DNA from: Bacteroidota bacterium
GTDB lineage: Bacteria > Bacteroidota > Ignavibacteria > Ignavibacteriales > Ignavibacteriaceae
DNA length: 64,000 bases
Direction: 5' to 3'
Assembly (NCBI GenBank): GCA_022708025.1
Contig: JAKIZM010000010.1
Location: 1-64,000 of the forward strand
Shown: one piece after another, positions 7,176-55,024 of the stretch
Numbering within the stretch: position 1 is the stretch's first letter
Layout of the letters: each line of letters starts with the position of its first letter
Program-made: the position numbers and the translations under genes
The notes under the pieces: generated by a model
Seen by the model: only the letters and a program-made list of their open reading frames with translations
The model's database searches: none
What the model was told of the DNA's origin: nothing

Positions 7176-7774
7176 CTTCTCAGAGCTTTTGGCTTTCCTA
7201 ATATTTCTGAAAACAAAATATATTCTCTAATCGCAGTATGGTTTTTTAATCTTAAATTAAAATTATTGATTTCGGTTTTTTGTTTGCTTTTATCAGATAA
7301 AAGCTTCTCAAACTTTTTTGCATCAGCTTCAATCTTTGGGCTAACTGTTCTTGATTGCCGCAAAACGGCTTTTCTGCTTGTTTTTTTATCATCATAAGTT
7401 TCTCTGAAGCCGATAGGTTCTTTTTCTTCAACACTTCTGTGAAGTCTTCTGTCGTCAGCTATATCAAGGTTTTTATCTTTAATTTCTCGATCAGAAAAAT
7501 CAGAGGGCTCTTGAGCTGGTCTGGTTTGTGGCTGAGGAATGTTTACTTCACCTTTAAAAAGATTTTCAATCTCTTTAAGAATATCATATTCATCTCTTTT
7601 TTGTGTTATTACCTCAGGCGTTGAAGATGAACCCTGCTTTAAAGAAATATTTGAATCAGCTCTTTGATTTCTCTGAGTTGGAGTTTGTTTTGGAGGCTCT
7701 TTCTTTTTAAAGAAAGAACTTAAAAAACTGAAAATTATAATACCCCAAATAAGGTATTGAAATAAATCATCCAT
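7172..7774 (-). CDS. Membrane-anchored protein with charged linker and conserved C-terminal motif, function unknown
   Basis: A 200-aa protein with one N-terminal transmembrane helix (about residues 5-22). A long polar, probably disordered middle rich in K, E, D, Q and R follows. The compact C-terminal segment reads AIREYILFSEILGKPKALRR; similar short endings occur in uncharacterised proteins of this phylum. It has no recognisable catalytic motif. It lies between floA (50 bp upstream) and the helicase (4-bp overlap). The anchor and flotillin context suggest a membrane-associated role, but no function is assigned. Confidence 0.75.
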   Translation of the reverse strand: MDDLFQYLIWGIIIFSFLSSFFKKKEPPKQTPTQRNQRADSNISLKQGSSSTPEVITQKRDEYDILKEIENLFKGEVNIPQPQTRPAQEPSDFSDREIKDKNLDIADDRRLHRSVEEKEPIGFRETYDDKKTSRKAVLRQSRTVSPKIEADAKKFEKLLSDKSKQKTEINNFNLRLKNHTAIREYILFSEILGKPKALRR

Positions 7775-33005: not shown

Positions 33006-33446
33006 ATGTCTGTTGAAATGGAACCTATCGCAGAAATGATCTGCGAATTAACCCGTAATTGTAATATTAAAGAAGAATATTTTGCTGCAAGTTTTAATTT
33101 ATCACCTTCTGAGATAAAATTCTTAAAACTTCTTGCTGTTAAGCCTCAATATACAATAAAAGAATTTCGTGAAATTCTTAAACTAACTCCGGGAAGAATC
33201 ACACACATTTTAACTTCATTAGAAGCAAAAAACTTAATCACCAGAACACTAGATCCTAAAGATAAGAGAGTAATATTAGTTTGTTTGCTGCCAAAAGCTA
33301 CTCCACTTATTTTAAATTTGCAACAGAATTATAACGAGTTGCATAAAAGAATCCTGCAAAATGTTAGCGAAGATGAGCTTAAAAAAATTACTTCTTCGTT
33401 AAAAATCCTAAATAAAGTTTTTGATCAATGGGTAAATCAAAAATAA
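33006..33446 (+). CDS. MarR family transcriptional regulator
   Basis: A 146-aa protein with the MarR winged-helix fold: YTIKEFREILKLTPGRITHI as the helix-turn-helix and LEAKNLITRTLDPKDKRVIL as the wing with the DP-x-DKR motif. Helices before and after form the dimer. It is 36 bp before the octaheme cytochrome gene and is the natural candidate regulator of that operon. A 7-bp AT inverted repeat (32987-33004, AAATAAA / TTTATTT) touches its start, but in such AT-rich DNA this may be chance. The effector ligand is unknown; there is no Cys-based redox motif in the DNA-binding part. Confidence 0.92.
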   Translation: MSVEMEPIAEMICELTRNCNIKEEYFAASFNLSPSEIKFLKLLAVKPQYTIKEFREILKLTPGRITHILTSLEAKNLITRTLDPKDKRVILVCLLPKATPLILNLQQNYNELHKRILQNVSEDELKKITSSLKILNKVFDQWVNQK

Positions 33447-33482
33447 TTTATACTCTAAAACACTTAAAAATTCAATAGTTAG

Positions 33483-35060
33483 ATGAGAAAGATAGTATTA
33501 GTCCTTGCTTTTATCGGTTTATTAGTAGTAATCGCTATAGGCTTTTTTTCACAGAAGGATTATGAACCAACTACTTTAATGAAATTGAAAGAGAAATATT
33601 CTAAAAAATATACTCCATCAGTTGATCATTCAAAATTTGCTGTGCTACAACAAAAATTTTCAACTCCTCAACAGGTAACTGCAACTTGTATAAGCTGCCA
33701 CAATCAACGACATAAAGAAGTAATGCAGTCAAATCACTGGAATTGGGAAAGAGAAGAATATGTTGAAGGAAAAGGTATTGTTTATCTTGGTAAAAGAAAT
33801 GCAATCAACAATTTCTGTATCGGAACACAAGGTAATGAAGAGAGCTGCGCAAAATGTCATATTGGTTATGGTATGACTTCAGGCGGAAAATCTTTTACAG
33901 ATTCTACAAATGTTGATTGTTTGGTATGTCATGATAATACTGAAACTTATGTTAAAGCGCCTGAAAAAGGAGGATTGCCTTTATCCACATTAGATTTTAA
34001 TGCAATTGCTCAAAGTGTTGGTAAACCAAAACTGAGCAACTGCGGCGTTTGTCATTTTTATGGCGGCGGAGGAAATAATGTTAAACATGGTGATCTTGAT
34101 GAAGCTATGTTTGAAACAACCAAAGATATTGATGTTCATATGGGAACTGATGGTGCAAAGCTTCAATGTGTTGATTGCCATACTACAGAAAAACATAATA
34201 TTGCAGGCAAAGTCTATTCACTTTCTTCTATGAATATGAATAGAAATAACTGCGAGCAATGTCATACTGCAACTCCACACGAAGATAATATTTTAAACGA
34301 GCATACAATTAAAGTTGCTTGTCAAAGCTGTCACATACCAACTTATGCAAAAGCGAATTCAACAAAAATGTCTTGGGATTGGTCAACTGCTGGCAAATTA
34401 AAAAACGGTGAACCTTATGAAGAAGATGACAGTTTAGGTAATCATACATATCTATCTATAAAAGGAAGTTTTTCCTGGGACAGAAATGTTGTTCCGGATT
34501 ATATATGGTTTAACGGAACCGCAACTCATTATCTGGAAGGGGATCAGATTACCGATACAACAAAACCGTTAGTATTAAATCAGCTTCACGGATCTTATGC
34601 AGATGATGAATCAAAAATTTATCCGGTAAAAATCCATGTTGCAAAACAACCTTATGATCCCGTAAATAAAATATTGATTCAGCCTAAGCTTTTTGCTGAT
34701 AAGGAAGGTGAAGGAGCTTTCTGGTTGGATTTCAATTGGCAGACTGCTGCTACTGAAGGAATGAAAGATGCTAATCTTCCGTTCAGTGGAAAAATATCAT
34801 TTATAAATACAGAAATGTATTGGCCTGTAAATCATATGGTTGCTACAAAAGAAAACTCACTTAGTTGTAATAGCTGTCATACAAGAGAAAACAGCAGACT
34901 TGCAGGACTTAATGATTTTTATATGCCAGGAAGAGATTATTCTGAGATTGTTGAAGTTGGCGGAGTGTGGTTATTGATAATTACGTTTCTCGGTGTTATT
35001 GCTCATGGCTCTGTAAGAATATTTATGGAGGTAAAAGCAAAGAAAGGAGGTAAGCAATGA
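33483..35060 (+). CDS. Octaheme c-type cytochrome, tetrathionate reductase (OTR) family
   Basis: A 525-aa exported multiheme protein. An N-terminal hydrophobic segment (4-22) serves as signal or anchor, and a second helix at about 494-512 anchors the C-terminus. Eight CXXCH motifs start at C69, C122, C146, C187, C229, C257, C280 and C462. The context CISCHNQRHKEVMQSNHWNW and NNFCIGTQGNEESCAKCHIG matches the Shewanella octaheme tetrathionate reductase family. In that family the enzyme reduces tetrathionate, nitrite and hydroxylamine in vitro; the true substrate here is unknown. It overlaps the cytochrome b gene by 4 bp, so electrons probably come from quinol through that subunit. Confidence 0.92.
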   Translation: MRKIVLVLAFIGLLVVIAIGFFSQKDYEPTTLMKLKEKYSKKYTPSVDHSKFAVLQQKFSTPQQVTATCISCHNQRHKEVMQSNHWNWEREEYVEGKGIVYLGKRNAINNFCIGTQGNEESCAKCHIGYGMTSGGKSFTDSTNVDCLVCHDNTETYVKAPEKGGLPLSTLDFNAIAQSVGKPKLSNCGVCHFYGGGGNNVKHGDLDEAMFETTKDIDVHMGTDGAKLQCVDCHTTEKHNIAGKVYSLSSMNMNRNNCEQCHTATPHEDNILNEHTIKVACQSCHIPTYAKANSTKMSWDWSTAGKLKNGEPYEEDDSLGNHTYLSIKGSFSWDRNVVPDYIWFNGTATHYLEGDQITDTTKPLVLNQLHGSYADDESKIYPVKIHVAKQPYDPVNKILIQPKLFADKEGEGAFWLDFNWQTAATEGMKDANLPFSGKISFINTEMYWPVNHMVATKENSLSCNSCHTRENSRLAGLNDFYMPGRDYSEIVEVGGVWLLIITFLGVIAHGSVRIFMEVKAKKGGKQ

Positions 35061-35710
35061 AAAAGAAACAAGTTTATGTGTATAAAGCTTTTGAAAGATT
35101 CTGGCATTGGATGCAGGCTATCTTAATTTTCTTTTTAGCTTTTAGCGGATTTGAAATACACGGTTCTTATACTTTTTTTGGATTCAGAGATGCAGTTAAA
35201 TATCATAATATTGCTGCTTATATGCTTATCATACTTATTGTGTTTGCAATCTTCTGGCATTTTGCAACCGGTGAATGGAGACAGTATGTTCCATCATTCA
35301 GAAACATTGCTGCACAGCTTAACTATTATATATTCGGTATTTTTAAAAATGCACCGCATCCAACTAGGAAAACTGTATTAAGCAAACTTAATCCATTACA
35401 AAAGCTTACTTATTTTGGATTAAAAATTTTAGTTATTCCGGTTATTGTTACCTCCGGATTACTTTATATGCTTTACAGATATCCGCAAAAATATGGCATT
35501 GAGTCTTTGAATATTGAATCATTAGAAGTTATAGCAATAATACATACGATAGCTGCGTTTTTGTTGGTGGCATTTATCATAGCACATTTGTATTTAATAA
35601 CAACCGGTGAAAAAGTTACAACAAACTTAAAAGCAATGTTAACCGGTTATGAAGAATTAGAAGAACATCACGATGAAGGAGAAGTAACTTCATCAGAAAA
35701 ATCTGAATAG
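35057..35710 (+). CDS. Membrane cytochrome b subunit (cytochrome b561/thiosulfate reductase type)
   Basis: A 217-aa integral membrane protein with four main hydrophobic helices (about 17-38, 51-70, 118-140, 160-183). Histidines suitable for two b hemes are present (FWHWM at 17, YHNIAAYM, IFWHFATGEW, IHTIAAF, IAHLYL). The FERFWHWMQA start is typical of di-heme b561-like quinol-cytochrome subunits of formate dehydrogenase and thiosulfate reductase complexes. The 4-bp overlap with the octaheme cytochrome shows coupling. It likely passes electrons between menaquinol and the periplasmic octaheme protein. Confidence 0.9.
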   Translation: MKKKQVYVYKAFERFWHWMQAILIFFLAFSGFEIHGSYTFFGFRDAVKYHNIAAYMLIILIVFAIFWHFATGEWRQYVPSFRNIAAQLNYYIFGIFKNAPHPTRKTVLSKLNPLQKLTYFGLKILVIPVIVTSGLLYMLYRYPQKYGIESLNIESLEVIAIIHTIAAFLLVAFIIAHLYLITTGEKVTTNLKAMLTGYEELEEHHDEGEVTSSEKSE

Positions 35711-35718
35711 AGGACTTT

Positions 35719-36234
35719 ATGGAAGAAAAAAAATATATGAATCCGTATTTAGCTGGTACCTTATTAGGACTTTTATTACTGGCTACAATTTACATTACCG
35801 GAAGAGGATTGGGTGCAAGTGGAGCAGTTAAAAGTTTTACTGTTGGAATTGTTGAAACTGTTGCACCAGAGCATACAAGTAATAACTCGTTCTATACAGA
35901 ATACGCACAGGAACATGAAGGAAGCCCATTGATGAACTGGCTTGTTTTTGAAGTTGTGGGCGTACTTATCGGAGGATTTATATCCGGACTGATTTCCAAC
36001 CGATTAAATCTTAAGCTGGAATATGGACCAAGATCTAAACCAAATATAAGAGTAGCCGGCGCTTTAATAGGAGGATTGCTTTTTGGATTTGGTGCACAAC
36101 TTGGCAGAGGCTGTACGAGCGGCTCTGCTCTTAGTGGTATGGCTGTGCTTTCAACCGGCGGTTTGATTACAATGATGGCAATATTTGGCGGAGCATATAT
36201 GTTTGCCTACTTTTTTAGAAAACTCTGGATATAG
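35719..36234 (+). CDS. YeeE/YedE family sulfur transport protein (half)
   Basis: A 171-aa membrane protein with four or so helices and the family motif GAQLGRGCTSGSALSGMAVL, with the conserved Cys. Full-length YeeE/TsuA (about 350 aa) imports thiosulfate through a relay of cysteines; here the transporter is split, this gene giving one half and the following gene the other. Start chosen by GAGG 6 bp upstream. It lies 8 bp after the cytochrome b gene, within one operon. Confidence 0.9.
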   Translation: MEEKKYMNPYLAGTLLGLLLLATIYITGRGLGASGAVKSFTVGIVETVAPEHTSNNSFYTEYAQEHEGSPLMNWLVFEVVGVLIGGFISGLISNRLNLKLEYGPRSKPNIRVAGALIGGLLFGFGAQLGRGCTSGSALSGMAVLSTGGLITMMAIFGGAYMFAYFFRKLWI

Positions 36235-36251
36235 AGAGGAGAGTATTTATT

Positions 36252-37442
36252 ATGGGACCATTAGTACCAGATATTGTAGGACCTGAATTAAATTACATTG
36301 TAGCACTTATCATCGGAATATTTTTTGGAATTATACTTGAGCAAGCAGGATTTTCAACTTCTAAAAAATTAGTTGGATTGTTTTACGGATATGATTTTAC
36401 AGTGCTCAGGGTTTTCTTCACTGCAGGCATTGTGGCAATGATTGGTGTAATTGCTTTTGAACATTTTGGATTATTGGATATTAACCTTACATATATTAAT
36501 CCTACATTTCTATGGTCTGCTATTGTCGGCGGATTGATTATGGGATTAGGATTTGTAATCGGTGGTTTTTGTCCAGGAACAAGTATTTGCGCAGCAGCTA
36601 TCGGTAAGATTGATGCGATGATATTTATTGCTGGTTCATTTATCGGTGTTTTTGTTTTTGCAGAAGGTTATCCGATTTGGGAAGGTTTATATAAAGCTGA
36701 AAATTGGGGAAATATTAGAATATTTGAATTACTTGGAATGCAGCAAACAGTATTTGCTTTTATGCTAACTGCAATCGCATTGTCAATGTTTTGGTTTGTT
36801 TCAATCGTTGAGAATAAAGTAAACGGAATTAAAAAACCTGTTTTCAGATTTACTCCTTATTATGTTTCTTTAGGTATAATCGGATTTGCTCTTTCAATCA
36901 CTGCTTTTATGTTAACCGAAAGAAAAGATCACCTAAAAAATTTAGTATCAGATAAAGAGTTTGTGAATAATTATGATATAAAAGCAATGAGTGTTGATGA
37001 GTTGGCTTATCGATTAATGAAGAATGATAACAGATTGCAAATCATTGATTTCCGATCATTGGAAGAATTTAAAAAAGAAAGTTTACCGGGTTCAACTTCT
37101 TTTACCTTTGATAATCTTTTTGAGAAAGAGCCCGGAAGAATTTTAAGTATCAGACATAAAGTAAATCTTTTTGTTGCTGAAGACGAATTTCAGGAAAGGC
37201 AACTTGCAATTGTAGCAAATAGATTAGGTTTTAAAAATGTAACTATTCTTCAAGGCGGATTGAGCAAGTTTAATAAAGATATTTTAAACTTTGATAAATC
37301 TCTTGTAGCTAGTAATAAAAGGGAAGAGGATACTTACAGATTCAGAACAAAGGCAAGTTCAATAATTCCTGTTTTGATCAAAGAAAATAAATCAACAGGA
37401 CCTGTTAAGAAAACTCAAAAACGGGCAATTGGCGGATGTTAA
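36252..37442 (+). CDS. YeeE/YedE sulfur transporter half with rhodanese-like C-terminal domain
   Basis: A 396-aa protein: YeeE/YedE membrane domain (about 10-225) with GGFCPGTSICAAAIGK carrying two cysteines, then a transmembrane segment and a rhodanese-like domain (about 250-365: LQIIDFRSLEEFKKESLPGS...VTILQGGLSKFN). The usual catalytic Cys loop is replaced by VNLFVAEDEFQERQ, with no cysteine. The protein ends KRAIGGC, so its only soluble-part cysteine is the last residue. The preceding gene supplies the other transporter half. It probably moves thiosulfate or related sulfur anions, or exchanges sulfur with the octaheme enzyme; this is inference from context. Confidence 0.9.
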   Translation: MGPLVPDIVGPELNYIVALIIGIFFGIILEQAGFSTSKKLVGLFYGYDFTVLRVFFTAGIVAMIGVIAFEHFGLLDINLTYINPTFLWSAIVGGLIMGLGFVIGGFCPGTSICAAAIGKIDAMIFIAGSFIGVFVFAEGYPIWEGLYKAENWGNIRIFELLGMQQTVFAFMLTAIALSMFWFVSIVENKVNGIKKPVFRFTPYYVSLGIIGFALSITAFMLTERKDHLKNLVSDKEFVNNYDIKAMSVDELAYRLMKNDNRLQIIDFRSLEEFKKESLPGSTSFTFDNLFEKEPGRILSIRHKVNLFVAEDEFQERQLAIVANRLGFKNVTILQGGLSKFNKDILNFDKSLVASNKREEDTYRFRTKASSIIPVLIKENKSTGPVKKTQKRAIGGC

Positions 37443-37447
37443 AAATT

Positions 37448-37539
37448 AAAAGGCTGTTTTAAGAAACCACTTTTTTTGTAATAATTTGAGAACCTGAAAC
37501 GAGTTCAGGTTGACAAAAATATTTTTTAAAACAGCCTTT
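37448..37539. terminator. Nested bidirectional terminator hairpin
   Basis: Outer arms AAGGCTGTTTTAA (near 37450-37462) and TTAAAACAGCCTTT (37526-37539) enclose an inner hairpin AACCTGAA / TTCAGGTT (37491-37511) followed by TGACA. It lies between the convergent sulfur operon and the sigma-54 regulator. The inner hairpin resembles the dispersed CTGAA...TTCAGG repeats. Confidence 0.75.
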
Positions 37540-37555
37540 ATTGATTAAGTAAAAT

Positions 37556-39280
37556 TCAAATCTCAAGTTTCTTAATCTTTCTCCAGAGAGTTGAAGGATT
37601 GATATTTAATTCTTCAGCAGTTTTAGTTCTGTTACCTTTGTGCTTTTCGAGCAATGAAATAATCAGCTGCTTTTCAGTTTCCTTTACTTTATTTACTGGA
37701 TTAATAATTATCTGACTTGGAAGGAATTTTTTCTCACGTAACCTTTTAGGCAGACAATCAACGTCAATTATCTTTCCGTTGCAAAGAACGAAACAATGCT
37801 CAATAACATTTTCAAGTTCTCTGATATTTCCGGGCCAATTATACTCAGTTAAAATATCGTAAGCACGAGATGAAAATTGTCTAACATCTTTTTTAAACTT
37901 TGTATTAAACACTTCAATAAAGTGATTGACGAATAAAGGAAAATCATCCATCCTTTCTCTTAATGGGGGCAGATGAATATTAACCACATTGATTCGATAG
38001 AAAAGATCCTCACGAAATCTTCCTGAAGAAATTTCTTCTACAAGATTTTTATTTGTAGCAGCAATTATTCTCGCATCAATTTTAAATATTTTATTTCCGC
38101 CAACTCTTTCAAATTCTTTTGTTTCAAGCACTCTTAATAATTTTGTTTGAACTGCTAATGACAGATCACCAATTTCATCGAGGAATAAAGTTCCGTCTTT
38201 TGCAAGTTCAAACTTACCAGCTTTTGATTTTATTGCGCCTGTAAATGCTCCTTTTTCATGTCCGAATAATTCACTTTCAATTAACGTTTCGACATAAGCG
38301 CTGCAGTTTACAGCAATAAATGGTTTTGTTTTTCTTGGACTGTTTAGATGAATTGCACGGGCAGCTAATTCTTTTCCGGTTCCGCTTTCACCTGTTATAA
38401 GCACTGAACTGTCAGTCTGAGAAACACTTTCAAGAACATGAAAGATTTGTTTTATCTCTTTGTTTCTGCCGATTATATTTTCATATCTGTAAACTTCGGT
38501 TAGATGGTCAGACAGGTTTTTGATTTCCGATATATCAATAAATGTTTCAACTGCACCAATTCTTTCATTCTTATTATTTATTAATATACTTGAATTTACA
38601 CGAATCGGAACAAGTCTGCCGCTCTTATGCAGTATTTCAACTTCATTGCCTATCATAGGTTTACCTTTTGTCATAGTCTGTTCCATATGACAGCCGTTTC
38701 TGCAAATTGATGAATTAAAAATCTCCCAACATTTTTTTCCTATCGCTTCGCTCTTTTTATATCCTGTTATTTTTTCTGCGGACTTATTAAATGAAGTTAT
38801 GTTCCAATCATTATCAATTGTAAATGTTCCTTCAATGTTGCTGTTGAAGATTGCATCAAGTTTATTTTTCTGATCGATCAGTTCTGATGTTTTTTCATTT
38901 ATCTCTTCAGCAAGTTTCAGCATTTCTTTCGTATCTCTGAAAACAAAAACAACACTTAAAACTTTCCCATCTCTAACAATTGGTGTTATAGATGCTAAAA
39001 CATTTTTGCTTTTTCCTTTAGAGTCAATAATATCAATTGGTTGATTATTGAACGAAATATTTTCTTTAATTGCTCTGCTAATAAAATTTGTATCTTCTGA
39101 ATGAGAAGAGAATATCAGATCAATTTTTTTTCCTATTATTTCATCTTCAGAATATCCGGTTATTCGCGAGGCAGCTTCATTGAAGACAATTATCTCCTGG
39201 TCGAGAGATATAACAGAGATCCCATCCGGGATGATAAGGCTTTCTTTATTCCTATCAATTATTTGTTGAACATCAGGCAT
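37556..39280 (-). CDS. Sigma-54 dependent transcriptional activator with two PAS domains
   Basis: An NtrC-type enhancer-binding protein of about 574 residues. PAS 1 is near residues 10-115, a short coiled coil follows, and PAS 2 (about 145-265) contains [13 protein letters not shown], a C-x3-C pair that could sense redox or bind a cofactor. The AAA+ domain has [15 protein letters not shown], the sigma-54 contact loop GAFTGA and [10 protein letters not shown]. The C-terminal Fis helix-turn-helix is [24 protein letters not shown] at 39304 would extend it by eight residues but almost touches the upstream ATGCAAT array. I prefer the ATG at 39280. There is no receiver domain, so control is by its own PAS sensors. 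Candidate targets are the neighbouring sulfur operon and the radical SAM locus. Confidence 0.92.
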
Positions 39281-39308
39281 AAAATTCTCAATTTCTTTAT
39301 CCAAAGTT

Positions 39309-39375
39309 ATGCAATTGATTGCATCAATGCAATTTTTTAGAAATAATTATTGCAAAAATGCAATAGTAATGCAAT
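39309..39375. promoter_or_regulatory. Array of six ATGCAAT/ATTGCAT half-sites
   Basis: Heptamers ATGCAAT lie at 39309-39315, 39327-39333, 39358-39364 and 39369-39375, and their reverse complement ATTGCAT at 39318-39324; ATTGCA (six of seven) is at 39349-39354. They form exact palindromes ATGCAAT-TG-ATTGCAT and ATTGCA-AAA-ATGCAAT-like, spaced about 9-11 bp apart in two groups. The array fills the divergent region between the sigma-54 activator and the first radical SAM gene. This is far denser than expected by chance and is probably an operator or enhancer. Confidence 0.75.
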
Positions 39376-39461
39376 TATAATAATTGAATTTTGAGCAAAA
39401 AAGCAGCTTTTTAAATCGGAACAGTTTTGGTAAAACTATTATAAATAAACTGAGATTTAAT

Positions 39462-40481
39462 ATGAAAATTTTATTCGAAAAACAACTTGTAAGTATTTGC
39501 AATCGATTAAAGAAATATATTCTTTCTGATAAATCTTTAAGGTGCAAAGTAGTTTATGGCCCAATCCGATCTCGAAGATTAGGAATGGTTTTAGGCGTTA
39601 ACAATATCAGAAGAAACCTTTGTCCTTACGATTGCATTTATAGTCCAAACGGAGGGACGTCTTGCTGCTCGATTTGTTCTTCACAATGTCTTTCACCTTA
39701 TGAGCTTTTTTTTGCTGTTAAAAATAAAATTGATGAGATCAACAAAAAGGGGAAAAAGATAGATTATATTTTATTTGCTGGTCAAGGTGATCCTGCTTTA
39801 GATCTGAATCTTCCGCAGGAAATATCCATCCTTCGTGAATTCGGATATAAGATCGCAGTTTTTACAAGCTCAGCTTTACTCCATAATGAAAATATCAGAG
39901 AGAATCTGATGTTTGCTGATTATGTTTCTCTTAAACTTGATACTGTAAATGAAGAGAGCTGGTTGAAAATTAATCATCCTCATCAAAGATTAAAATATGA
40001 TCTTATTCTGGATGGAATAGAAAAATTTGCACGCTCATTCAGAAGAAAACTTGTAACTGAAACAACATTTGTTAAAGGCTTCAACGACAATGAAACTGAA
40101 ATTGAAGATCTTTCTGTTTTCTTAAACAAGCTGAATTTGGATACAAGTTATTTTACAATTCCGATTTATCCGCCAAATGAAAAATATGCTGTAAGTCCTG
40201 ATGATAATACACTTAAAAAACTTTCAGAAAAGATAAACAGTTTAATTCCAAATTCAACTTTGCTGTGCTGTCCGAAGGAGGATGAAATTTATATAACAGA
40301 TGATTTTGAAGAAGAGTTACTTGGGCTATTGGAAATGCATCCTGTTAATGAAGAAGCTGTATTTAAGCTAGCAAAAATTTCAAGCAACATTGAAAAGTTA
40401 AACAAAATGATTGTTGACAAAATAATAAAAACTGATCAATACAATGGAAAGAATTATTACTCACTTGTTAATCAGTCATAA
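39462..40481 (+). CDS. Degenerate radical SAM-like protein (cluster cysteine lost)
   Basis: A 339-aa paralogue of the next gene (shared GPIRSRRLGMVLGVNNI versus GPIPSRRLGRSLGINNI). The radical SAM motif CX3CX2C reads C54-P-Y-D-C58-I-Y-S61: the third cysteine is Ser. The Gly-rich GEPTL motif is also changed (GQGDPALDLNL). A cysteine-rich insertion CCSICSSQC (C68, C69, C72, C76) follows directly, and could supply another metal ligand. The C-terminal part has a winged-helix-like segment. A TTG at 39384 would lengthen the protein without homology to the paralogue; I chose the ATG at 39462. It is probably a pseudo-enzyme or partner of the canonical paralogue. Biochemical role unknown. Confidence 0.8.
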   Translation: MKILFEKQLVSICNRLKKYILSDKSLRCKVVYGPIRSRRLGMVLGVNNIRRNLCPYDCIYSPNGGTSCCSICSSQCLSPYELFFAVKNKIDEINKKGKKIDYILFAGQGDPALDLNLPQEISILREFGYKIAVFTSSALLHNENIRENLMFADYVSLKLDTVNEESWLKINHPHQRLKYDLILDGIEKFARSFRRKLVTETTFVKGFNDNETEIEDLSVFLNKLNLDTSYFTIPIYPPNEKYAVSPDDNTLKKLSEKINSLIPNSTLLCCPKEDEIYITDDFEEELLGLLEMHPVNEEAVFKLAKISSNIEKLNKMIVDKIIKTDQYNGKNYYSLVNQS

Positions 40482-40579
40482 GGAAAAAGAGTAATTATTT
40501 AGCTATTAAAAGAATAAAAAATTTCTGAAAAATATTATCAAATAACAATTATAATTTAATTATCAATTGAGTTTTCAAG

Positions 40580-41512
40580 GTGGGAATTTTATTCGGACCA
40601 ATTCCGTCAAGGAGATTAGGAAGAAGTCTTGGTATTAACAATATACCTGCAAAAGTATGCAGCTATTCTTGTGTTTATTGTCAGGTCGGATTAACCACAA
40701 CACTTTCTGTTGAGCAAAGAGAATTCTATTCGCCAAATTTGATTTACGCTGATGTCAGAAAACGTTTGGAGGAATTAAAAGCTGATAATGAAGCTGTTGA
40801 TTATTTGTCTTTTGTTCCTGATGGTGAACCGACGTTAGATATAAATCTTGCTGACACAATTTATATGCTTAAAAATTTTGGGATTAAAATAGCTGTGTTT
40901 ACTAATTCATCATTGATCTGGAAAAAAGAAGTTCAGGAGGCATTAAATTTAGCTGACTATGTTTCCGTTAAAATTGATTCGATAGATGAGGCAACCTGGA
41001 AAAAGATAAATCATCCTTCTCATAAACTTGATCTTAATAAAATACTTGATGGAATTCTAGAGTTTAAGAAAAACTACTCCGGCAAGCTTGTTACTGAAAC
41101 GATGTTGATTAGTGGAATAAACGATAATGACGATGATCTAATTAAAACATCACATTATATTGTTAAAGTTGAACCCGACATAGCTTATTTAACTGTTCCG
41201 ACCAGACCAACTCCAATTAAGAATATACGTGCGCCTAAACCTGAAAAATCAATTTCAATTTTTAAAATATTCAAATCGATTTATCCAAAAACTGAATTGT
41301 TAAATGTTTATGAAGGAAATGAATTTTCAATAACTGATGAGATAGAAGAAGGTTTGGTAAGTATAATGGCAGTTCATCCGATGCGAAAAGATGCAGTTGA
41401 AAATTATTTATTAAGATCAAAGTCAGATTGGAGCGTTATTGATAAATTGATTGAGACAGAAAAGATCATCGAAATAGAATATGATGGGAATATTTTTTAC
41501 AAGAATAATTAG
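40580..41512 (+). CDS. Radical SAM protein (COG0731-like)
   Basis: A 310-aa radical SAM enzyme starting at GTG. The cluster motif C27-S-Y-S-C31-V-Y-C34 is intact, with the aromatic residue before the third Cys. DGEPTLDINL is the SAM-binding GE motif, and AVFTNSSL and VSVKIDSIDEATWKKINHP follow the usual barrel order. A small C-terminal domain (MAVHPMRKDAVENYLLRS) looks like a winged helix. The family is uncharacterised, though distantly like wybutosine-synthesis enzymes. Together with the degenerate copy 98 bp upstream it forms a tandem pair, followed by the carbohydrate-binding, NifX-like and Dps genes. Confidence 0.9.
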   Translation: MGILFGPIPSRRLGRSLGINNIPAKVCSYSCVYCQVGLTTTLSVEQREFYSPNLIYADVRKRLEELKADNEAVDYLSFVPDGEPTLDINLADTIYMLKNFGIKIAVFTNSSLIWKKEVQEALNLADYVSVKIDSIDEATWKKINHPSHKLDLNKILDGILEFKKNYSGKLVTETMLISGINDNDDDLIKTSHYIVKVEPDIAYLTVPTRPTPIKNIRAPKPEKSISIFKIFKSIYPKTELLNVYEGNEFSITDEIEEGLVSIMAVHPMRKDAVENYLLRSKSDWSVIDKLIETEKIIEIEYDGNIFYKNN

Positions 41513-41534
41513 AATATTTATTAAGGAGGTTGTT

Positions 41535-41846
41535 ATGGCTATAAAGAAAACATTTTCTCAGGATAAAAAAGTATGCAGGGTTAATTTCACCTTGCCGAAA
41601 GAGGTTTGTGAAAATTTTCAGGAAGTTAGTGTTGTTGGAGATTTTAACGGTTGGGATCCAGGCGAAAATAAATTTTCACAGAAAAATTCAGATGGTTCAT
41701 CTTCAATTGAAATAGTTTTTGATAGTGGTAAAGAATACCAGTTCAGATATTTATGTGACGGTCATATCTGGCTGAATGAACCTGATGCTGATAAAGAAAA
41801 GCTTACTTATTTCGGTAATGCAAAAAATTCAGTCTTAGTATTATAA
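41535..41846 (+). CDS. Small glycogen-binding/isoamylase early-set (CBM48-like) domain protein
   Basis: A 103-aa single-domain protein. The motif SVVGDFNGWDPGENKFSQ and the later EYQFRYLCDGHIWLNEPDAD are the core of the CBM48/AMPK-beta glycogen-binding fold. The ATG at 41535 is chosen because AAGGAGG (41523-41529) sits 5 bp before it; an upstream ATG at 41481 lies inside the previous gene. Stand-alone domains of this kind are common in this phylum, and their role is unclear. The position among metal and Fe-S related genes is unexpected. Confidence 0.9.
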   Translation: MAIKKTFSQDKKVCRVNFTLPKEVCENFQEVSVVGDFNGWDPGENKFSQKNSDGSSSIEIVFDSGKEYQFRYLCDGHIWLNEPDADKEKLTYFGNAKNSVLVL

Positions 41847-41859
41847 ATAATTAAAATAT

Positions 41860-41923
41860 CGGAGCGGAGCTGTTAAGCCACTCGTATCCTAAATGAATTA
41901 AATTATCAGCAGGCTTCGCTCCG
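41860..41923. repeat. Intergenic inverted repeat CGGAGCGGAGC...GCTTCGCTCCG
   Basis: 11-bp arms (41860-41870 and 41913-41923, one mismatch) around a 42-nt loop, followed by TGTTTTA. It may be a terminator for the CBM48 gene or a mobile repeat remnant. Confidence 0.5.
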
Positions 41924-41977
41924 TGTTTTATCAAATAATAAGTAATAGAATGTTTTAATATAAAACAGGAGTCAATT

Positions 41978-42199
41978 ATGCCACACTTAAATGAAAACAG
42001 GTCGGAAGGAAATAAACCGTTTATTAGGAAAAGGAGAAGATGCAGAAGCGAAGAATGTAAAGAAGAAAATCGTGAACTTATGTATGAACAAAGACGCTGT
42101 GGAAGAGGTCGTGGTGAAAGAGGGAGAGAGGGAAATGGATTTGGAAAGGGACAGGGCAGACGAAGAGGTTTTGGCAGAAATCAAATTTTTGGTAATTAA
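41978..42199 (+). CDS. Small Arg/Gly-rich protein, function unknown
   Basis: A 73-aa very basic peptide: N-terminal MPHLNENRSEGNKPFIRKRR, two cysteines in RRCRSEECKEE and another in RRCGRGRGE, then a Gly/Arg-rich tail GRRRGFGRNQIFGN. AGGAG (41967-41971) is 6 bp before the ATG. An overlapping frame (41991-42209) is open but lacks a ribosome site. Small Gly-rich proteins often precede NifX/NifB-like genes in anaerobes (DUF5320-type); this may be a diverged relative. It ends 3 bp before the first NifX-like gene. Confidence 0.65.
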   Translation: MPHLNENRSEGNKPFIRKRRRCRSEECKEENRELMYEQRRCGRGRGERGREGNGFGKGQGRRRGFGRNQIFGN

Positions 42200-42202
42200 A
42201 AA

Positions 42203-42613
42203 ATGTTGATAGCAGTATCAGTTAAAAATACGGAAGAATCATCATTACTATCAGATTCATTTGGGAGGAGTAAATACTTTTTAATTTATGATTCACTAAA
42301 AAGTAGGTTTGAATTCATTAAAAATCCATATTATCTGGAATTAGGCGGAGCAGGAATTCAAACCGCACGGTTTTTAATTGAACAAAAAGTTGAAGCTATA
42401 ATTACAACTTTTATTGGACCGAATATTTTAAGGTTTTTTAATTCATCGCAAGTAAAAGTTTATAAATCAGTAAATAAAACTTTGCAGGAATCATTAAAAC
42501 TTTTTTTTGAAAATAAACTTGATGAATTAACCAAAGATATAAATCTAAAAAGGCAGCGCAGAAGATTTGGATGGGAAAGCAAATACTTTAACGATACAGA
42601 GGGCAAAAATTAA
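42203..42613 (+). CDS. NifX/NifB-type dinitrogenase cofactor domain protein (first of three)
   Basis: A 136-aa protein with the NifX/NafY/NifB C-terminal fold: MLIAVSVKNTEESSLLSDSFGRSKYFLIYD, in two parts, then GGAGIQTARFLIEQKVEAII and a final helix LQESLKLFFENKLDEL. Related proteins bind or carry Fe-S or FeMo-cofactor precursors, but many have no link to nitrogen fixation, and no nif genes are seen here. Expressed with two further copies and Dps. Confidence 0.85.
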   Translation: MLIAVSVKNTEESSLLSDSFGRSKYFLIYDSLKSRFEFIKNPYYLELGGAGIQTARFLIEQKVEAIITTFIGPNILRFFNSSQVKVYKSVNKTLQESLKLFFENKLDELTKDINLKRQRRRFGWESKYFNDTEGKN

Positions 42614-42633
42614 AAGAAAAATCGGTGATTGAA

Positions 42634-43014
42634 ATGTCCGAAAGAATAGCTGTAGCAATTGAAGAGCTTGAAAATAACAGACAAATTATTCCGTATGAGA
42701 TTGGTAAGTGTTCTAAATTCATAGTATGTGAAATTGCTGGTGATAAGTCGATAATCGAAAAGGAAATTTATTTTAATCCACTTTTAGGTGAATCGAGTTC
42801 AGCTTCACAATTGCCTGAATATCTTAAACAATTTAAAATTAATGTTTTGATAACAGGTGAAATGGGACAACAAATTATTAAAAAATTTTTGAAACATAAG
42901 ATAATAGTATTATCAGCTCCCGGTCTTGGGTTTAATCAGGCTTTAGCTCTTTATTTGAACAAAAAATCGGAAATGAATAAATCATATAACTATTATAAAC
43001 AGATTATTGAATAA
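42634..43014 (+). CDS. NifX-like domain protein (second of three)
   Basis: A 127-aa divergent NifX-like protein: MSERIAVAIEELENNR, IGKCSKFIVCEIAG, SSSASQLPEYLKQFKINVLI and GEMGQQIIKKFL follow the strand-helix order of the family. A GTG at 42625 would add three residues, but GGTGA lies 5 bp before the ATG at 42634, which I prefer. It is the least conserved of the three paralogues. The ligand is unknown. Confidence 0.78.
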   Translation: MSERIAVAIEELENNRQIIPYEIGKCSKFIVCEIAGDKSIIEKEIYFNPLLGESSSASQLPEYLKQFKINVLITGEMGQQIIKKFLKHKIIVLSAPGLGFNQALALYLNKKSEMNKSYNYYKQIIE

Positions 43015-43039
43015 TCATGAAAAAATAAAAAGGTAAAAA

Positions 43040-43366
43040 ATGATAATTGTAATTCCATCAAACGGCGATACTATAGATTCTTTGGTAAGTGATACTTTAG
43101 GGCGGGCACCGTTTCTGATTGTTTACGACAGCACAAACGAAAAATATAATTCTGTTGAGAATCCCGGTTTTAGAGTTCAGGATGGTTCAGGTCTTAAAGC
43201 TTCTGAAGTGATCATAAATCAGAGAGCTGATATTCTATTAACCAGAGAGATAGGCAGGAAATCATATTCGGTTTTACAGAGAGAACGCATAAAAATACAA
43301 CTATTAACAACAGGCGGATCTGTTAAATCCGTTATTAAAAAATATCTAAAAAAACAGGAGAAGTAA
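43040..43366 (+). CDS. NifX-like domain protein (third of three)
   Basis: A 108-aa NifX-fold protein: MIIVIPSNGDTIDSLVSDTL, GRAPFLIVYD, SGLKASEVIINQRADILLTR and a C-terminal Lys-rich helix. Clear paralogue of the 42203 gene (matching SDSFGRSKYFLIYD with SDTLGRAPFLIVYD). The tail overlaps the Dps ribosome binding site. Confidence 0.85.
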   Translation: MIIVIPSNGDTIDSLVSDTLGRAPFLIVYDSTNEKYNSVENPGFRVQDGSGLKASEVIINQRADILLTREIGRKSYSVLQRERIKIQLLTTGGSVKSVIKKYLKKQEK

Positions 43367-43368
43367 AA

Positions 43369-43812
43369 ATGAAATCTAACAACCTTATTGAATTGTTAAA
43401 CAAAAACCTTTCAAATCTGCAGTTGATTTATGTAAAGCTTCATAATTATCACTGGAATGTTAAAGGGATGAATTTTAAGCTCATTCATGAAATGACTGAA
43501 TCATATTATGATTATTTCGCCGAACAGTATGACGAAGTTGCTGAAAGAATTGTGCAGCTTGGAGGAAAACCTTTTGCAACATTAAGTGATTATTCTAAGA
43601 ATGCTTCATTAAAAGAAGAAACTAAAAATGATTATGACACAAAATATATTCTTAACTCAATCTTATCAGATTTTGAAGCTTTAAATAAAGAATATAAAGA
43701 GATATCAAAAGCTGCAGGCGATGCTGAAGATGCTGTAACAGAAGCTTTAGCGGATGATGATGTTAAGTGGCTTGAAAAAGAAATCTGGATGGTTAAAGCA
43801 AGTTTATATTAA
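43369..43812 (+). CDS. dps: Dps-family ferritin-like DNA-protection protein
   Basis: A 147-aa four-helix ferritin-like protein. The intersubunit ferroxidase ligands of Dps are all in place: H28 in HNYHWNVKG, H40 in KLIHEMTE, D55 and E59 in EQYDEVAERI, with the spacing of the E. coli protein. It should oxidise Fe(II) with peroxide and store iron, protecting DNA. Strong AGGAG site; only 2 bp after the last NifX-like gene, so iron storage is co-expressed with these putative Fe-S carriers. Confidence 0.95.
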   Translation: MKSNNLIELLNKNLSNLQLIYVKLHNYHWNVKGMNFKLIHEMTESYYDYFAEQYDEVAERIVQLGGKPFATLSDYSKNASLKEETKNDYDTKYILNSILSDFEALNKEYKEISKAAGDAEDAVTEALADDDVKWLEKEIWMVKASLY

Positions 43813-43991
43813 TTGTTATATACTTCTATTATCTGAATCGTTTTTATAATTTTTAATTAAGTGCTTAATACAAAATTTTGTTTAACTGAACGATTCAACT
43901 TTATTAACTCGAAAAAACTGTGAACAAAAAGAAGTATCTTTACATATTAAATTTCTTTTATTCTTCTACAACTGTATAAAAAAATAATATT

Positions 43992-46367
43992 ATGAAACTC
44001 AAGACTATAATCCTAACACTATTGTTGGGATTTTTTAATACAATATTTTCTCAGACAATTAACATTCAAGGTAAAGTATCCGATTTAAAAACAAATCAGC
44101 CTGTTTCTGGAGCTTTTGTTTTTATAAATTATAATTATTCTACATACACAAATAATCAGGGAATATTTACTATCTCGGATATTCGATCCGGTAAATATGA
44201 AATAAAAATTTCACGGCTTGGATATAAATTATATTCAAAGGAATTAACAATTGAATCATCTTCAAAAGATTTGGAAATCAAACTGGAACCATCGCTGATT
44301 GAGCTTGATGAAGTAATTGTAAGCACAAGCAAAACTGAGGATTACTTAAAAAATTCGCCTTATTCAGAATTATTAATTAGCAGTAAAGATATAGAATCAA
44401 AACCATTACAATCATTCGCTGATATTGTGAAAGATCAACCGGGCGTTTCTCTTTTGCGTGATGGAGTGTGGGGAACAGAAATAAGTATTCGCGGATTGAA
44501 CAGAGAAAACATTGTTACTTTAATTGATGGCAGCAGAATACTAACAGCAACCGATATTGCTGCACGATTGTCAATGATAAATTTAAATGACATTGATAGA
44601 ATTGAAATTATAAAAGGAGCATCATCTTCAATTTATGGTTCGGGAGCAACAGGAGGAATTATAAATATCATTACAAAATCTCCTTCTTTTTATAACACAT
44701 TTTCTTTAAACGGAAATATTACTACACAATATAATTCTGTAAATAATTTATCGGCTCTTTCAGGCATATTATACAGCGGCGGATCTTTTTGGGCTTCAAA
44801 GTTTTCAGGATCTTACAGAAAAGCAAATAATATCCAAACTCCTCAAGGCGAATTAAAAAACAGTCAGTTTGAAGATTATAGTTTTACCGGCTCCTTAAAT
44901 GTTTTGCCAATTGCAAATCACAAGGTTTCTATAGATTATCAACTCTTCAGAGCAAATGATGTTGGAATACCCGGTTCATCTGTATTTCCAGCTAACGCTG
45001 ATGTTCGCTATCCTTTTGAAAAAAGAGAATTAATTTCTGCAGGATATGAAATCCAAAATATTTCTGAAATGTTTTATAAGTTTTCTGCCAAATACTCTTA
45101 TCAGTTTATTGCAAGAGATGTTGAAAATATTCCGCACACAGTTCAGATGATTCCTGGTTCCGGCGGCACTCCGACGAGAAGAGTCAGTGTTCTTAAAATA
45201 ACTCCCGGTGCTGATCATAAAAGTAATAACATTTTACTTCAGGGAAATCTTTTACTGGCAGACTGGAATAACTTAATTCTAGGATTGGATTATTGGGATA
45301 GAAAATACGAAGGACATAGAGAAAAATATCAGAAGATAGAAGCGCTTGATTCAACCGGACAGGTTATCAACACAATAAATAAAATAATCGGCGAAAAACC
45401 ATTGCCGAATTCATCTTACAGCAGCTTAGGTCTTTTTGTACAGGACGGTATGAATTTGTTAAAGGATAAATTAGATCTTAATCTTGGTGCAAGATATGAT
45501 TACATCAGTATTGCAGGTGAAAAAACTTTTAATCCCGAATATGAAATTGTAAACGGAAACTTAAATAATACTCCTGCCGGTCAGCAAGTAATCTGGAATG
45601 ATGTTAAATCAAATAACAGCTCATTTAGTTCCAACTTAGGATTGAAATATTCATTAAATCAGATGATAAACCTGACTCTTGGATTAGCTTATTCATTTCG
45701 CTCTCCGTCATTGGAAGAAAGATTTCAGTTTATTGATCAGGGCAGTTTAGTAAGAGTTGGAAATCCGGATCTTAAACCTGAAGAAGGAAAGAATATTGAT
45801 TTTGGATTCAGGATGTATTCAGATAATCTGAAAATTATTACAAGTTTATATTATAGTTATTTCAACAATCTTGTTTCGGAAATCCGTGGCACGTTTGAAG
45901 GAAGAAATGCAACATTTAAAACAAATATTGGTGAAGCAAGAATATATGGATTTGATCTTAGTTCTGATTATAACTTTTACAAAGATTATGTTTTTTATTC
46001 TGCATTTTCTTACACCAAAGGTGATGATATAACAAACAAAGGCAATCTTCCTGAGATTCCGCCATTAAACGGAACTTTAGGATTAAAATTCAATGTATTT
46101 GATTATGGTAATATGGATATTTCATCAACTTTATTTGCTGAACAGGGAGATGTAGCGCCTGGTGAATTAAAAACTCCAGGTTATGCAATTTTCAATTTTG
46201 TTTTTTCATCTGTGCCAATTGACTTTACTTCTGTTAAGATCAGAGTTTTTGCAGGCGTAGATAATTTGCTGAATAAATCATATCGTAATCATCTTTCAAC
46301 AACCAGAGGTAATTTAACGATTGAACCGGGTAGAAATATTTTTGCTAAATTAACGGTCGAATTTTAA
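43992..46367 (+). CDS. TonB-dependent outer-membrane receptor
   Basis: A 791-aa receptor: signal peptide (1-20, FNTIFSQ), carboxypeptidase-like regulatory domain (about 22-100, IQGKVSDLKTNQPVSGAFVF), plug (about 115-230: ESKPLQSFADIVKDQPGVSL and IEIIKGASSSIYGSGATGGI), then a long beta-barrel ending in a terminal Phe (FAKLTVEF). The regulatory extension is common in Bacteroidota. Substrate unknown; no riboswitch or substrate-specific neighbour is seen. It stands alone with a 179-bp upstream region. Confidence 0.95.
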   Translation: MKLKTIILTLLLGFFNTIFSQTINIQGKVSDLKTNQPVSGAFVFINYNYSTYTNNQGIFTISDIRSGKYEIKISRLGYKLYSKELTIESSSKDLEIKLEPSLIELDEVIVSTSKTEDYLKNSPYSELLISSKDIESKPLQSFADIVKDQPGVSLLRDGVWGTEISIRGLNRENIVTLIDGSRILTATDIAARLSMINLNDIDRIEIIKGASSSIYGSGATGGIINIITKSPSFYNTFSLNGNITTQYNSVNNLSALSGILYSGGSFWASKFSGSYRKANNIQTPQGELKNSQFEDYSFTGSLNVLPIANHKVSIDYQLFRANDVGIPGSSVFPANADVRYPFEKRELISAGYEIQNISEMFYKFSAKYSYQFIARDVENIPHTVQMIPGSGGTPTRRVSVLKITPGADHKSNNILLQGNLLLADWNNLILGLDYWDRKYEGHREKYQKIEALDSTGQVINTINKIIGEKPLPNSSYSSLGLFVQDGMNLLKDKLDLNLGARYDYISIAGEKTFNPEYEIVNGNLNNTPAGQQVIWNDVKSNNSSFSSNLGLKYSLNQMINLTLGLAYSFRSPSLEERFQFIDQGSLVRVGNPDLKPEEGKNIDFGFRMYSDNLKIITSLYYSYFNNLVSEIRGTFEGRNATFKTNIGEARIYGFDLSSDYNFYKDYVFYSAFSYTKGDDITNKGNLPEIPPLNGTLGLKFNVFDYGNMDISSTLFAEQGDVAPGELKTPGYAIFNFVFSSVPIDFTSVKIRVFAGVDNLLNKSYRNHLSTTRGNLTIEPGRNIFAKLTVEF

Positions 46368-53371: not shown

Positions 53372-55024
53372 TTATTTCTGATAAATAATTTTCCCATCGA
53401 AAACAGTCATTATAACTTCTGCATCTTTAATCTTAACAGGCTCTATCGTAAGTAAATCATCACTCAGAACGATCAGATCAGCAAGTTTTCCAACTTCAAT
53501 ACTGCCTTTGATGTTTTCCTCAAATGATGCATAAGCAGAGTTTAATGTATAACATTTTATTGCATCTTCAACTGAGATTTTTTGTTCAGGAATCCATCCA
53601 TCAGGATTTTTATCATCAAGGGTTCTTCTTGTTACTGCGGCATAAATTCCAAGCAATGGATTTAATGGCGCCACATACCAATCAGTTCCAAAACATAATT
53701 TTACACCTGCATCAAGAAATGATTTAAACGGATACGAATATTCAAGTCTTTCTTTTCCGATTCTTTTTTCAGCCCAAACTCCGTCATCAATGCAATGATA
53801 AGGCTGCACAGATGCAATAACTCCGAGCTCAGCAAATCTGTTTATATCTTCTTTTCTTAAATGTTGTGCATGCTCAATTCTGAATCTTCTATCCCATTTG
53901 GGATTTTCTTTGATTATTTTTTCGTAAAGATCAAGCATATATGCATTGGCTTTATCGCCTATAGCATGAACACAGATTTGTAAACCGTTTTTATCAGCAT
54001 CTAAACACCACTTTTCCATACTGCCATCGTTTATAACATCCATTGCCAGACCTGATGTTGTTGTGTCCTGAACATATCTGTCAAAAAACCAGGCAGTGCT
54101 TGAACCGAGTGAACCATCAGCAAAACCTTTTAATGATCCCATTTTTATTAATTCATCTCCATATCCTGCTTTAATATTTCTTTCAACAAGATATTTATAA
54201 TCGGCGATAGGCCAGCGTGCAAAAATTCTGCAGGTTAATATGCCTTCTTTTTTGGCGCGCTCAAAAACTGTTAATGCATCAAGATAACTTATATCCTGAA
54301 CACTTGTCAGTCCCAGGCGTTTTGCTTCATTGAGTGCCGCTAAAAGTGATTCATAATTTTCCTGTTCTGTATGATCAGGAATTTTAACATATACGAGATC
54401 CATCGCATTATCTTTTAATACTCCGGTTGGTTCACCTGTTTTTGGATCTTTAACAATAAGTCCGCCGTCAGGACTTTTAGTTTCTTTTGTTATTCCTGCA
54501 AGATTTAGTGCAAACGAATTTGCAACTCCCATATGTCCGTCAAGTCTTTCAACAAAAACCGGCTGATCAGAAACTACTTCATCGATCATTTCTTTTGTGG
54601 GCAGGTCTTTTACTTCCCATTTTTCGTGATCCCAATATCCGCCTGTTATCCATTTACCGGGATATTTTTTTGCATAATCTTTTAATATTTGTTTGAACTC
54701 AGAAGTTGAAGTTGCAGGTCTGAGATCGATACCAAGCAAATAAAATCCGCCGGTTAAAAAATGAACGTGATTATCATTAAATCCCGGAAGCATTAACTTG
54801 CCGTCTAAGTTAATTACCTGAGTGTTTTTATCTATAAATTTTTTAGCATCTTCATCTGAGCCGACAAAAATAATTTTATTATTTTCTACTACAACAGATT
54901 GTGCAAACGGCTGGTTTTCGTTTACCGTGTAAACCTTACCGTTAATAAAAGCTGTTCTATTATTTTGTGCCTTCATAGCAAAAAGTCCTGATAATATTAA
55001 AAAAATAGTTATGAAGTTTTTCAT
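53372..55024 (-). CDS. Secreted YtcJ-type amidohydrolase
   Basis: A 550-aa metal-dependent amidohydrolase with a signal peptide (1-19, FAMKAQ). Metal-binding motifs: NDNHVHFLTGG (H-x-H), a later GFADGSLGSSTAW, ICVHAIGDKAN, RIEHAQHLRK and CFGTDWYVAP with the catalytic Asp. The closing strand is ADLIVLSDDLL...EVIMTVFDGKIIY. YtcJ-like proteins hydrolyse amides or formamides; the natural substrate is not known. Export suggests a periplasmic catabolic role. Confidence 0.92.
   Translation of the reverse strand: MKNFITIFLILSGLFAMKAQNNRTAFINGKVYTVNENQPFAQSVVVENNKIIFVGSDEDAKKFIDKNTQVINLDGKLMLPGFNDNHVHFLTGGFYLLGIDLRPATSTSEFKQILKDYAKKYPGKWITGGYWDHEKWEVKDLPTKEMIDEVVSDQPVFVERLDGHMGVANSFALNLAGITKETKSPDGGLIVKDPKTGEPTGVLKDNAMDLVYVKIPDHTEQENYESLLAALNEAKRLGLTSVQDISYLDALTVFERAKKEGILTCRIFARWPIADYKYLVERNIKAGYGDELIKMGSLKGFADGSLGSSTAWFFDRYVQDTTTSGLAMDVINDGSMEKWCLDADKNGLQICVHAIGDKANAYMLDLYEKIIKENPKWDRRFRIEHAQHLRKEDINRFAELGVIASVQPYHCIDDGVWAEKRIGKERLEYSYPFKSFLDAGVKLCFGTDWYVAPLNPLLGIYAAVTRRTLDDKNPDGWIPEQKISVEDAIKCYTLNSAYASFEENIKGSIEVGKLADLIVLSDDLLTIEPVKIKDAEVIMTVFDGKIIYQK

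Follow-up and report, generated by a model that had tools for sequence, protein, structure and literature searches.

A palindromic TTGCA-N4-TGCAA array as the probable enhancer linking a sigma-54 activator to a radical SAM/NifX-like/Dps locus

In the 64,000-nucleotide stretch of DNA analysed here (the window), a short gap with a dense group of ATGCAAT/ATTGCAT half-sites lies between the gene of a sigma-54 enhancer-binding protein (EBP) and a locus that opens with radical SAM genes. The original prediction had read this group as the likely enhancer or operator that links the activator, its own expression and the neighboring locus, which raises the question of which protein binds the array and which genes are controlled from it.

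Architecture and background of the half-site array

Re-reading of the sequence reproduced the number and the coordinates of the predicted copies. Exact ATGCAAT occurs four times (starting at 39309, 39327, 39358 and 39369), exact ATTGCAT once (39318-39324) and a near copy, ATTGCAA, once (39349-39355), and all six share the core TGCAA/TTGCA (Table 1). The proposed palindromic pairs proved to be two perfect TTGCA-N4-TGCAA dyads, the centres of which are 31 bp apart, flanked by one additional half-site on each side. As had been stated, the array is located in the divergent region of the activator and the next gene, a gap of 181 bp between the likely starts of the EBP (ATG at 39280) and of the radical SAM/NifX-like (ORP)/Dps locus (ATG at 39462). 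A CRISPR, already dismissed in the original prediction, or a tandem repeat was ruled out as the half-sites are only 5-7 bp long, occur in both orientations and are helically phased. A structured RNA was also rejected, with no Rfam match in the region 37000-44500.

Table 1. Features at and around the half-site array (window coordinates)
Feature	Position	Strand	Remarks
sigma-54 EBP, 574 aa	37556..39280	-	Pfam; orthologue alignment
candidate EBP-gene promoter, TTG-N20-TAACTTTG	39302..39332	-	Bacteroidota-type (TTG-N20-TAnnTTTG); palindrome 1 covers its -33/spacer
half-site array	39309..39375	.	6 TGCAA/TTGCA cores in 67 bp; proposed upstream activating sequence/operator
extra half-site TGCAA, EBP side	39310..39314	+
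palindrome 1, TTGCATCAATGCAA	39319..39332	.	perfect TTGCA-N4-TGCAA; among only 4 exact copies genome-wide
palindrome 2, TTGCAAAAATGCAA	39350..39363	.	perfect TTGCA-N4-TGCAA; among only 4 exact copies genome-wide
extra half-site TGCAA, target side	39370..39374	+	11 bp from preceding half-site
candidate sigma-54 -24/-12 element, CGGAACAGTTTTGGTA	39417..39432	+	GG-N10-G; -12 not canonical; position 137 from EBP start
radical SAM protein 1	39462..40481	+	PF04055; COG0731-like by judgement; ATG start inferred from relatives
radical SAM protein 2	40580..41512	+	Pfam; alignment; CxxxCxxC intact
small DUF5320-like protein (MPHLNENRSEGNKP...)	41978..42199	+	position and composition only; relative's protein matches PF17253
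three Nitro_FeMo-Co (NifX/ORP-like) proteins	42203..43366	+	PF02579
Dps/ferritin-like protein	43369..43812	+	profile matches

The most trivial explanation would be that an A+T-rich 7-mer had clustered by chance. ATGCAAT occurs 27 times in the window as compared to 23 +/- 4.3 times in shuffled sequences; the 7-mer is therefore not rare, and solely its clustering is unusual. A second ATGCAAT pair at 53790-53818 lies inside a coding gene, and places with three half-sites occur about 59 times elsewhere in the genome, nearly all of them in coding sequence. However, no 67-bp segment exceeded three heptamers or four cores in any of 300 dinucleotide-shuffled versions of the window, whereas the array holds five and six, respectively. 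None of the approximately 59 other places had more than four cores or had TTGCA-N4-TGCAA within a four-core cluster, and the full palindrome occurs only four times in the 3.45-Mb genome, twice in the array and twice within coding genes. Random-level clustering elsewhere, which had been named as evidence that would speak against a regulatory role, was thus looked for genome-wide, and no comparable cluster was found.

The EBP displays the order PAS, PAS, AAA+ with GAFTGA (the latter from the alignment) and Fis-type HTH_8 (Pfam scores of 240 bits for PF00158 and 53 bits for PF02954). The AAA+ sigma-54 interaction domain, the GAFTGA motif and the DNA-binding HTH that characterize sigma-54 EBPs are accordingly all present, and the genome also encodes RpoN (PF04552 at G000:C14). 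The EBP likely starts at ATG 39280, the start common to its orthologues; TTG 39304 was also considered and was displaced by this ATG, which matches the relatives. Twelve full-length orthologues with at least 62% identity were obtained from genomes of relatives, and a C-x8-C-x3-C pattern in the second PAS domain (C184/C193/C197) is invariant in 13 orthologues, which suggests a redox or Fe-S signal. On the other side of the EBP gene, positions 33006-37442 encode a MarR regulator, an octaheme cytochrome of the tetrathionate reductase family (TIGR04315), a cytochrome b and YeeE/YedE-like membrane proteins. This group is syntenic in L050 and is possibly a sulfur-compound reduction cluster.

We infer that the genes from 39462 to 43812 form one operon. 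Serine replaces the third cluster cysteine of the first radical SAM protein (CxxxCxxS, NLCPYDCIYSPNG), which leaves an incomplete cluster motif in this genome, whereas CxxxCxxC is found in relatives and in the second copy. A small open reading frame (41481-41846) that follows the second radical SAM gene and precedes the NifX-like genes had no Pfam or NCBIfam match, and its sequence resembles a glycogen-binding (AMPK-CBM-like) domain. The second NifX-like protein aligns to the C-terminal portion of the MrpORP model.

Conservation of the array and of two candidate promoters

A scan of public genomes provided 29 useful EBP loci, among others from genomes titled Ignavibacteriales, Melioribacteraceae, Melioribacter roseus, BRH_c32, Candidatus Kryptoniota and LCP-89; the upstream statistics refer to 30 loci including the window. 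Within 150 bp upstream of the EBP, these loci contain 152 half-sites (47.6 +/- 7.0 in shuffles), 20 exact palindromes (0.13 expected) and 45 palindromes with at most one mismatch (1.5 in shuffles). N4 was by far the commonest spacing of inverted pairs, and others recurred near 14, 24-25, 35 and 46, thus about one helical turn apart. The 31-bp distance between two palindromes also occurs in L075 and L108 and is closely approached in L079. When both flanks were considered and the window was counted, 28 of 29 EBP orthologues had a palindrome with no more than one mismatch nearby, as compared to only five of the 17 other EBPs encoded in these genomes; exact palindromes were present near 18 orthologues and a single other EBP. 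Even a one-mismatch palindrome is missing at L056. Loss of the array in relatives that keep both genes, the second finding that would have counted against the original prediction, was not seen in such relatives: the array is retained there, and it is kept in nearly all orthologous loci while the surrounding intergenic bases diverge. This conservation refutes chance clustering, which we regard as virtually negligible.

The original prediction had noted no usual -24/-12 element, a statement that has to be corrected, as a GG-N10-G element exists between the array and the first radical SAM gene, although it is degenerate in the window, with TTGGTA instead of TTGCA at -12. Its assignment is based on its conserved position, since a simple weighted sigma-54 score by itself did not single it out. 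The element is in register with those of the relatives: the strict pattern GG[AC]A[CT]N6[TA]G was found in 19 of 30 loci, compared to an expectation of 0.36, at 116-180 positions from the start of the EBP and commonly 49-59 bp past the last half-site; GGGCACGTCTCTTGCA, TGGCATACAATTAGCA and TGGCACGGTATTTGTA are examples. Position 137, that of the element in the window, falls inside the range 127-162 occupied by the elements of these 19 loci. TGG(T/A) variants of the -12 region similar to that of the window occur in L054, L055, L062, L064 and L067.

Towards the EBP gene, the array overlaps a plausible Bacteroidota-type promoter, in line with the proposed link to the activator's own expression. 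Such a promoter overlaps the array in seven loci compared to 0.44 expected from mononucleotide shuffles, a lenient comparison, as the TTG is provided by the array itself. The TAnnTTTG element was directed towards the EBP in eight of 30 loci and was found once in the opposite orientation and once in the control region. Because of the overlap with TTG-N20-TAnnTTTG, negative autoregulation is likely, in which the EBP would repress its own gene by occupying the array.

Position of the palindromes relative to the target genes

Since the array occupies the region from 28 to 95 bp ahead of the EBP start and overlaps the candidate promoter of this gene, it might in principle serve as an operator for autoregulation of the EBP alone, without any action on the radical SAM operon. 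Loci in which the gene order differs argue against this. In G046 (L071/L109) the EBP gene is co-oriented with its neighbors, and a palindrome is located between its end and a run of ARMT1, ADC, rSAM and Mrp genes, and another lies ahead of a run of DUF5320, NifX and MinD-ferredoxin genes. Similarly, in L075 (EBP of 49% identity) a pair of palindromes at a distance of 31 bp is located between the EBP gene and TGGCATGCTGTTTGT. The palindromes in these loci, as in Desulfobacterota, thus lie downstream of the EBP and directly before the target operon, with sigma-54 elements beyond. In addition, extra copies in L071, L076 and L079 adjoin other ORP-type genes or operons, those of L076 and L079 being intergenic. 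A role restricted to the EBP gene is therefore very unlikely. Across the relatives, the neighboring genes encode NifX/ORP, radical SAM, Mrp (PF10609), MinD-ferredoxin, DUF5320, ARMT1-like and CGGC proteins.

In Desulfobacterota, the analysis covered 40 EBP matches with 41-50% identity, nearly all with a similar PAS cysteine pattern. Nine of 14 exact palindromes in 388 kb were located at most 0.4 kb from an EBP gene (p = 2e-7), mostly on its immediate downstream side and ahead of TGGCA(C/T)N6TTGC promoters, and they often precede Mrp, NifX or MinD-ferredoxin genes. The exact palindrome is absent near many of the Desulfobacterota EBP relatives. In the EBP tree, these relatives (at most 50% identity) form a sister group, and the palindrome bearers group within an Ignavibacteria-type clade and a Desulfobacterota subclade. 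In L154, L155, L156 and L182, TTGCA half-sites occur downstream of the EBP gene at other spacings (e.g., TTGCATATTGCAA) and precede TGGCA(C/T)AAAAAATGC promoters, possibly a variant of the same site.

The palindromes might also be the sites of a different factor, e.g., of the CRP/FNR family, which would control the EBP gene, the operon or both. FNR binds TTGAT-N4-ATCAA, and TTGCA-N4-TGCAA shares this 5-4-5 dyad geometry. Single palindromes also occur in genomes without an EBP orthologue, at 1-16 copies per genome compared to 3-12 in carriers (30 in one carrier). However, the array tracks the EBP gene and the sigma-54 promoter whichever side of the EBP it occupies, and does so in two phyla. Its multiple copies, located ahead of the -24 element by about 50 bp and more, resemble an upstream activating sequence (UAS), unlike activator sites at -41.5/-61.5 of a sigma-70 promoter. 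Judged from this tracking of EBP and sigma-54 operon, the motif is probably not a CRP/FNR site, and we consider a different factor unlikely, though less so than an operator confined to the EBP gene.

As single palindromes are equally common in carriers and non-carriers, the presence of the motif alone predicts nothing, and a large or global regulon deduced from TTGCA-N4-TGCAA alone was discarded, carriers being no richer in single palindromes than non-carriers. Judged from the motif's distribution, the regulon in the window's genome appears to be local. The G046 genome contains 30 exact palindromes (contigs C10, C46, C54 and C71), many in short regular runs of the TTGCATCCTTGCAA type, which are probably repetitive sequence and not regulatory sites. 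In G018 (contig 44), two TTGCA-N4-TGCAA pairs with distances of 31 and 32 bp (L108:4069-4113 and 7133-7178), accompanied by sigma-54-like TGGCAC elements, lie ahead of cytochrome-type genes and near a different EBP (a fragment); here, the motif seems to be used by another regulator. These pairs and the many Desulfobacterota without the exact palindrome indicate that the motif may not be exclusive to EBPs of the window type.

Proposed mechanism and relation to known systems

With respect to the initial question, the array is very probably the UAS of the adjacent EBP, which we infer to be its binder, and would drive the radical SAM/NifX-ORP/Dps locus along with self-repression of the EBP. The predicted role as enhancer or operator is strongly supported by the comparison of loci, as the motif tracks the EBP and ORP-type operons, switches sides with the operon and keeps a fixed distance to the sigma-54 position. 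According to this model, dimers of the EBP would bind via their Fis-type HTH to the palindromes, which are about three helical turns apart and would face the same side of the helix, and the extra half-sites would fill out the array. The AAA+ ring would assemble there and activate a sigma-54 polymerase that is bound at a distance of about 55-100 bp, and the candidate sigma-54 promoter would drive the radical SAM, DUF5320-like, NifX-ORP and Dps genes. Occupancy of palindrome 1 would block the EBP's own promoter and result in negative autoregulation. A redox or Fe-S signal may enter through the cysteine triad of the second PAS domain, which makes such a signal directly testable.

The array resembles the UAS of NtrC-, NifA- and TyrR-type Fis-HTH regulators in that several dyads in helical phase precede -24/-12 promoters; it differs in that arrays of the window type have up to six or more half-sites. 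The sequences of NtrC and NifA sites differ from the 14-bp TTGCA-N4-TGCAA, as do the groups of TGT/ACA half-sites reported for EBPs of Desulfovibrio vulgaris (PMC4641369). The best NCBIfam match of the EBP is the PrdR family (NF041552), at 433 bits, far under the cut-off of 795 bits. The TTGCA-N4-TGCAA palindrome, in the forms searched, was not found printed in the literature searched, and within this literature the type of switch is known while the motif and its spread across phyla appear to be undescribed. We give an even chance to the broader proposal that these arrays define an undescribed regulon of Ignavibacteria/Bacteroidota and Desulfobacterota, in which EBPs with the three PAS cysteines would sense redox or Fe-S state and control ORP/Mrp/NifX/radical SAM clusters through self-repressing multi-dimer enhancers. 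The ORP, NifX-like and Mrp systems of anaerobes, and likewise the function of their clusters, are poorly understood, and the signature of palindrome array, sigma-54 promoter at fixed distance and EBP with PAS cysteines predicts members of these systems.

By analogy, the locus would work like OrpR/orp of Desulfovibrio vulgaris Hildenborough, the closest known system. There, palindromic sites of the EBP OrpR (DVU2106) are located upstream of the sigma-54 promoters of divergent orp operons (PMC3897727, PMC4641369). Sites were reported at -88 and -131, with IHF between sites and promoter, and the OrpR site overlaps the sigma-70 promoter of the EBP gene itself, resulting in negative feedback (PMC3897727). 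DVU2106 is listed with GAFTDA (PMC4641369), whereas the EBP of the window has GAFTGA and two PAS domains. Both systems have a one-component EBP adjoining the genes it controls (as predicted for the window), Nitro_FeMo-Co (ORP) genes (three with PF02579 in the window) and palindromes before a sigma-54 promoter (a candidate one in the window), and in the window the array overlaps the candidate EBP promoter. OrpR reportedly uses an Fe-S cluster. The window differs in that it has a single divergent locus, which starts with radical SAM genes, and Mrp and MinD-ferredoxin genes are absent beside its array but occur in its relatives. With this locus, OrpR-like control would extend from sulfate reducers to Ignavibacteria.
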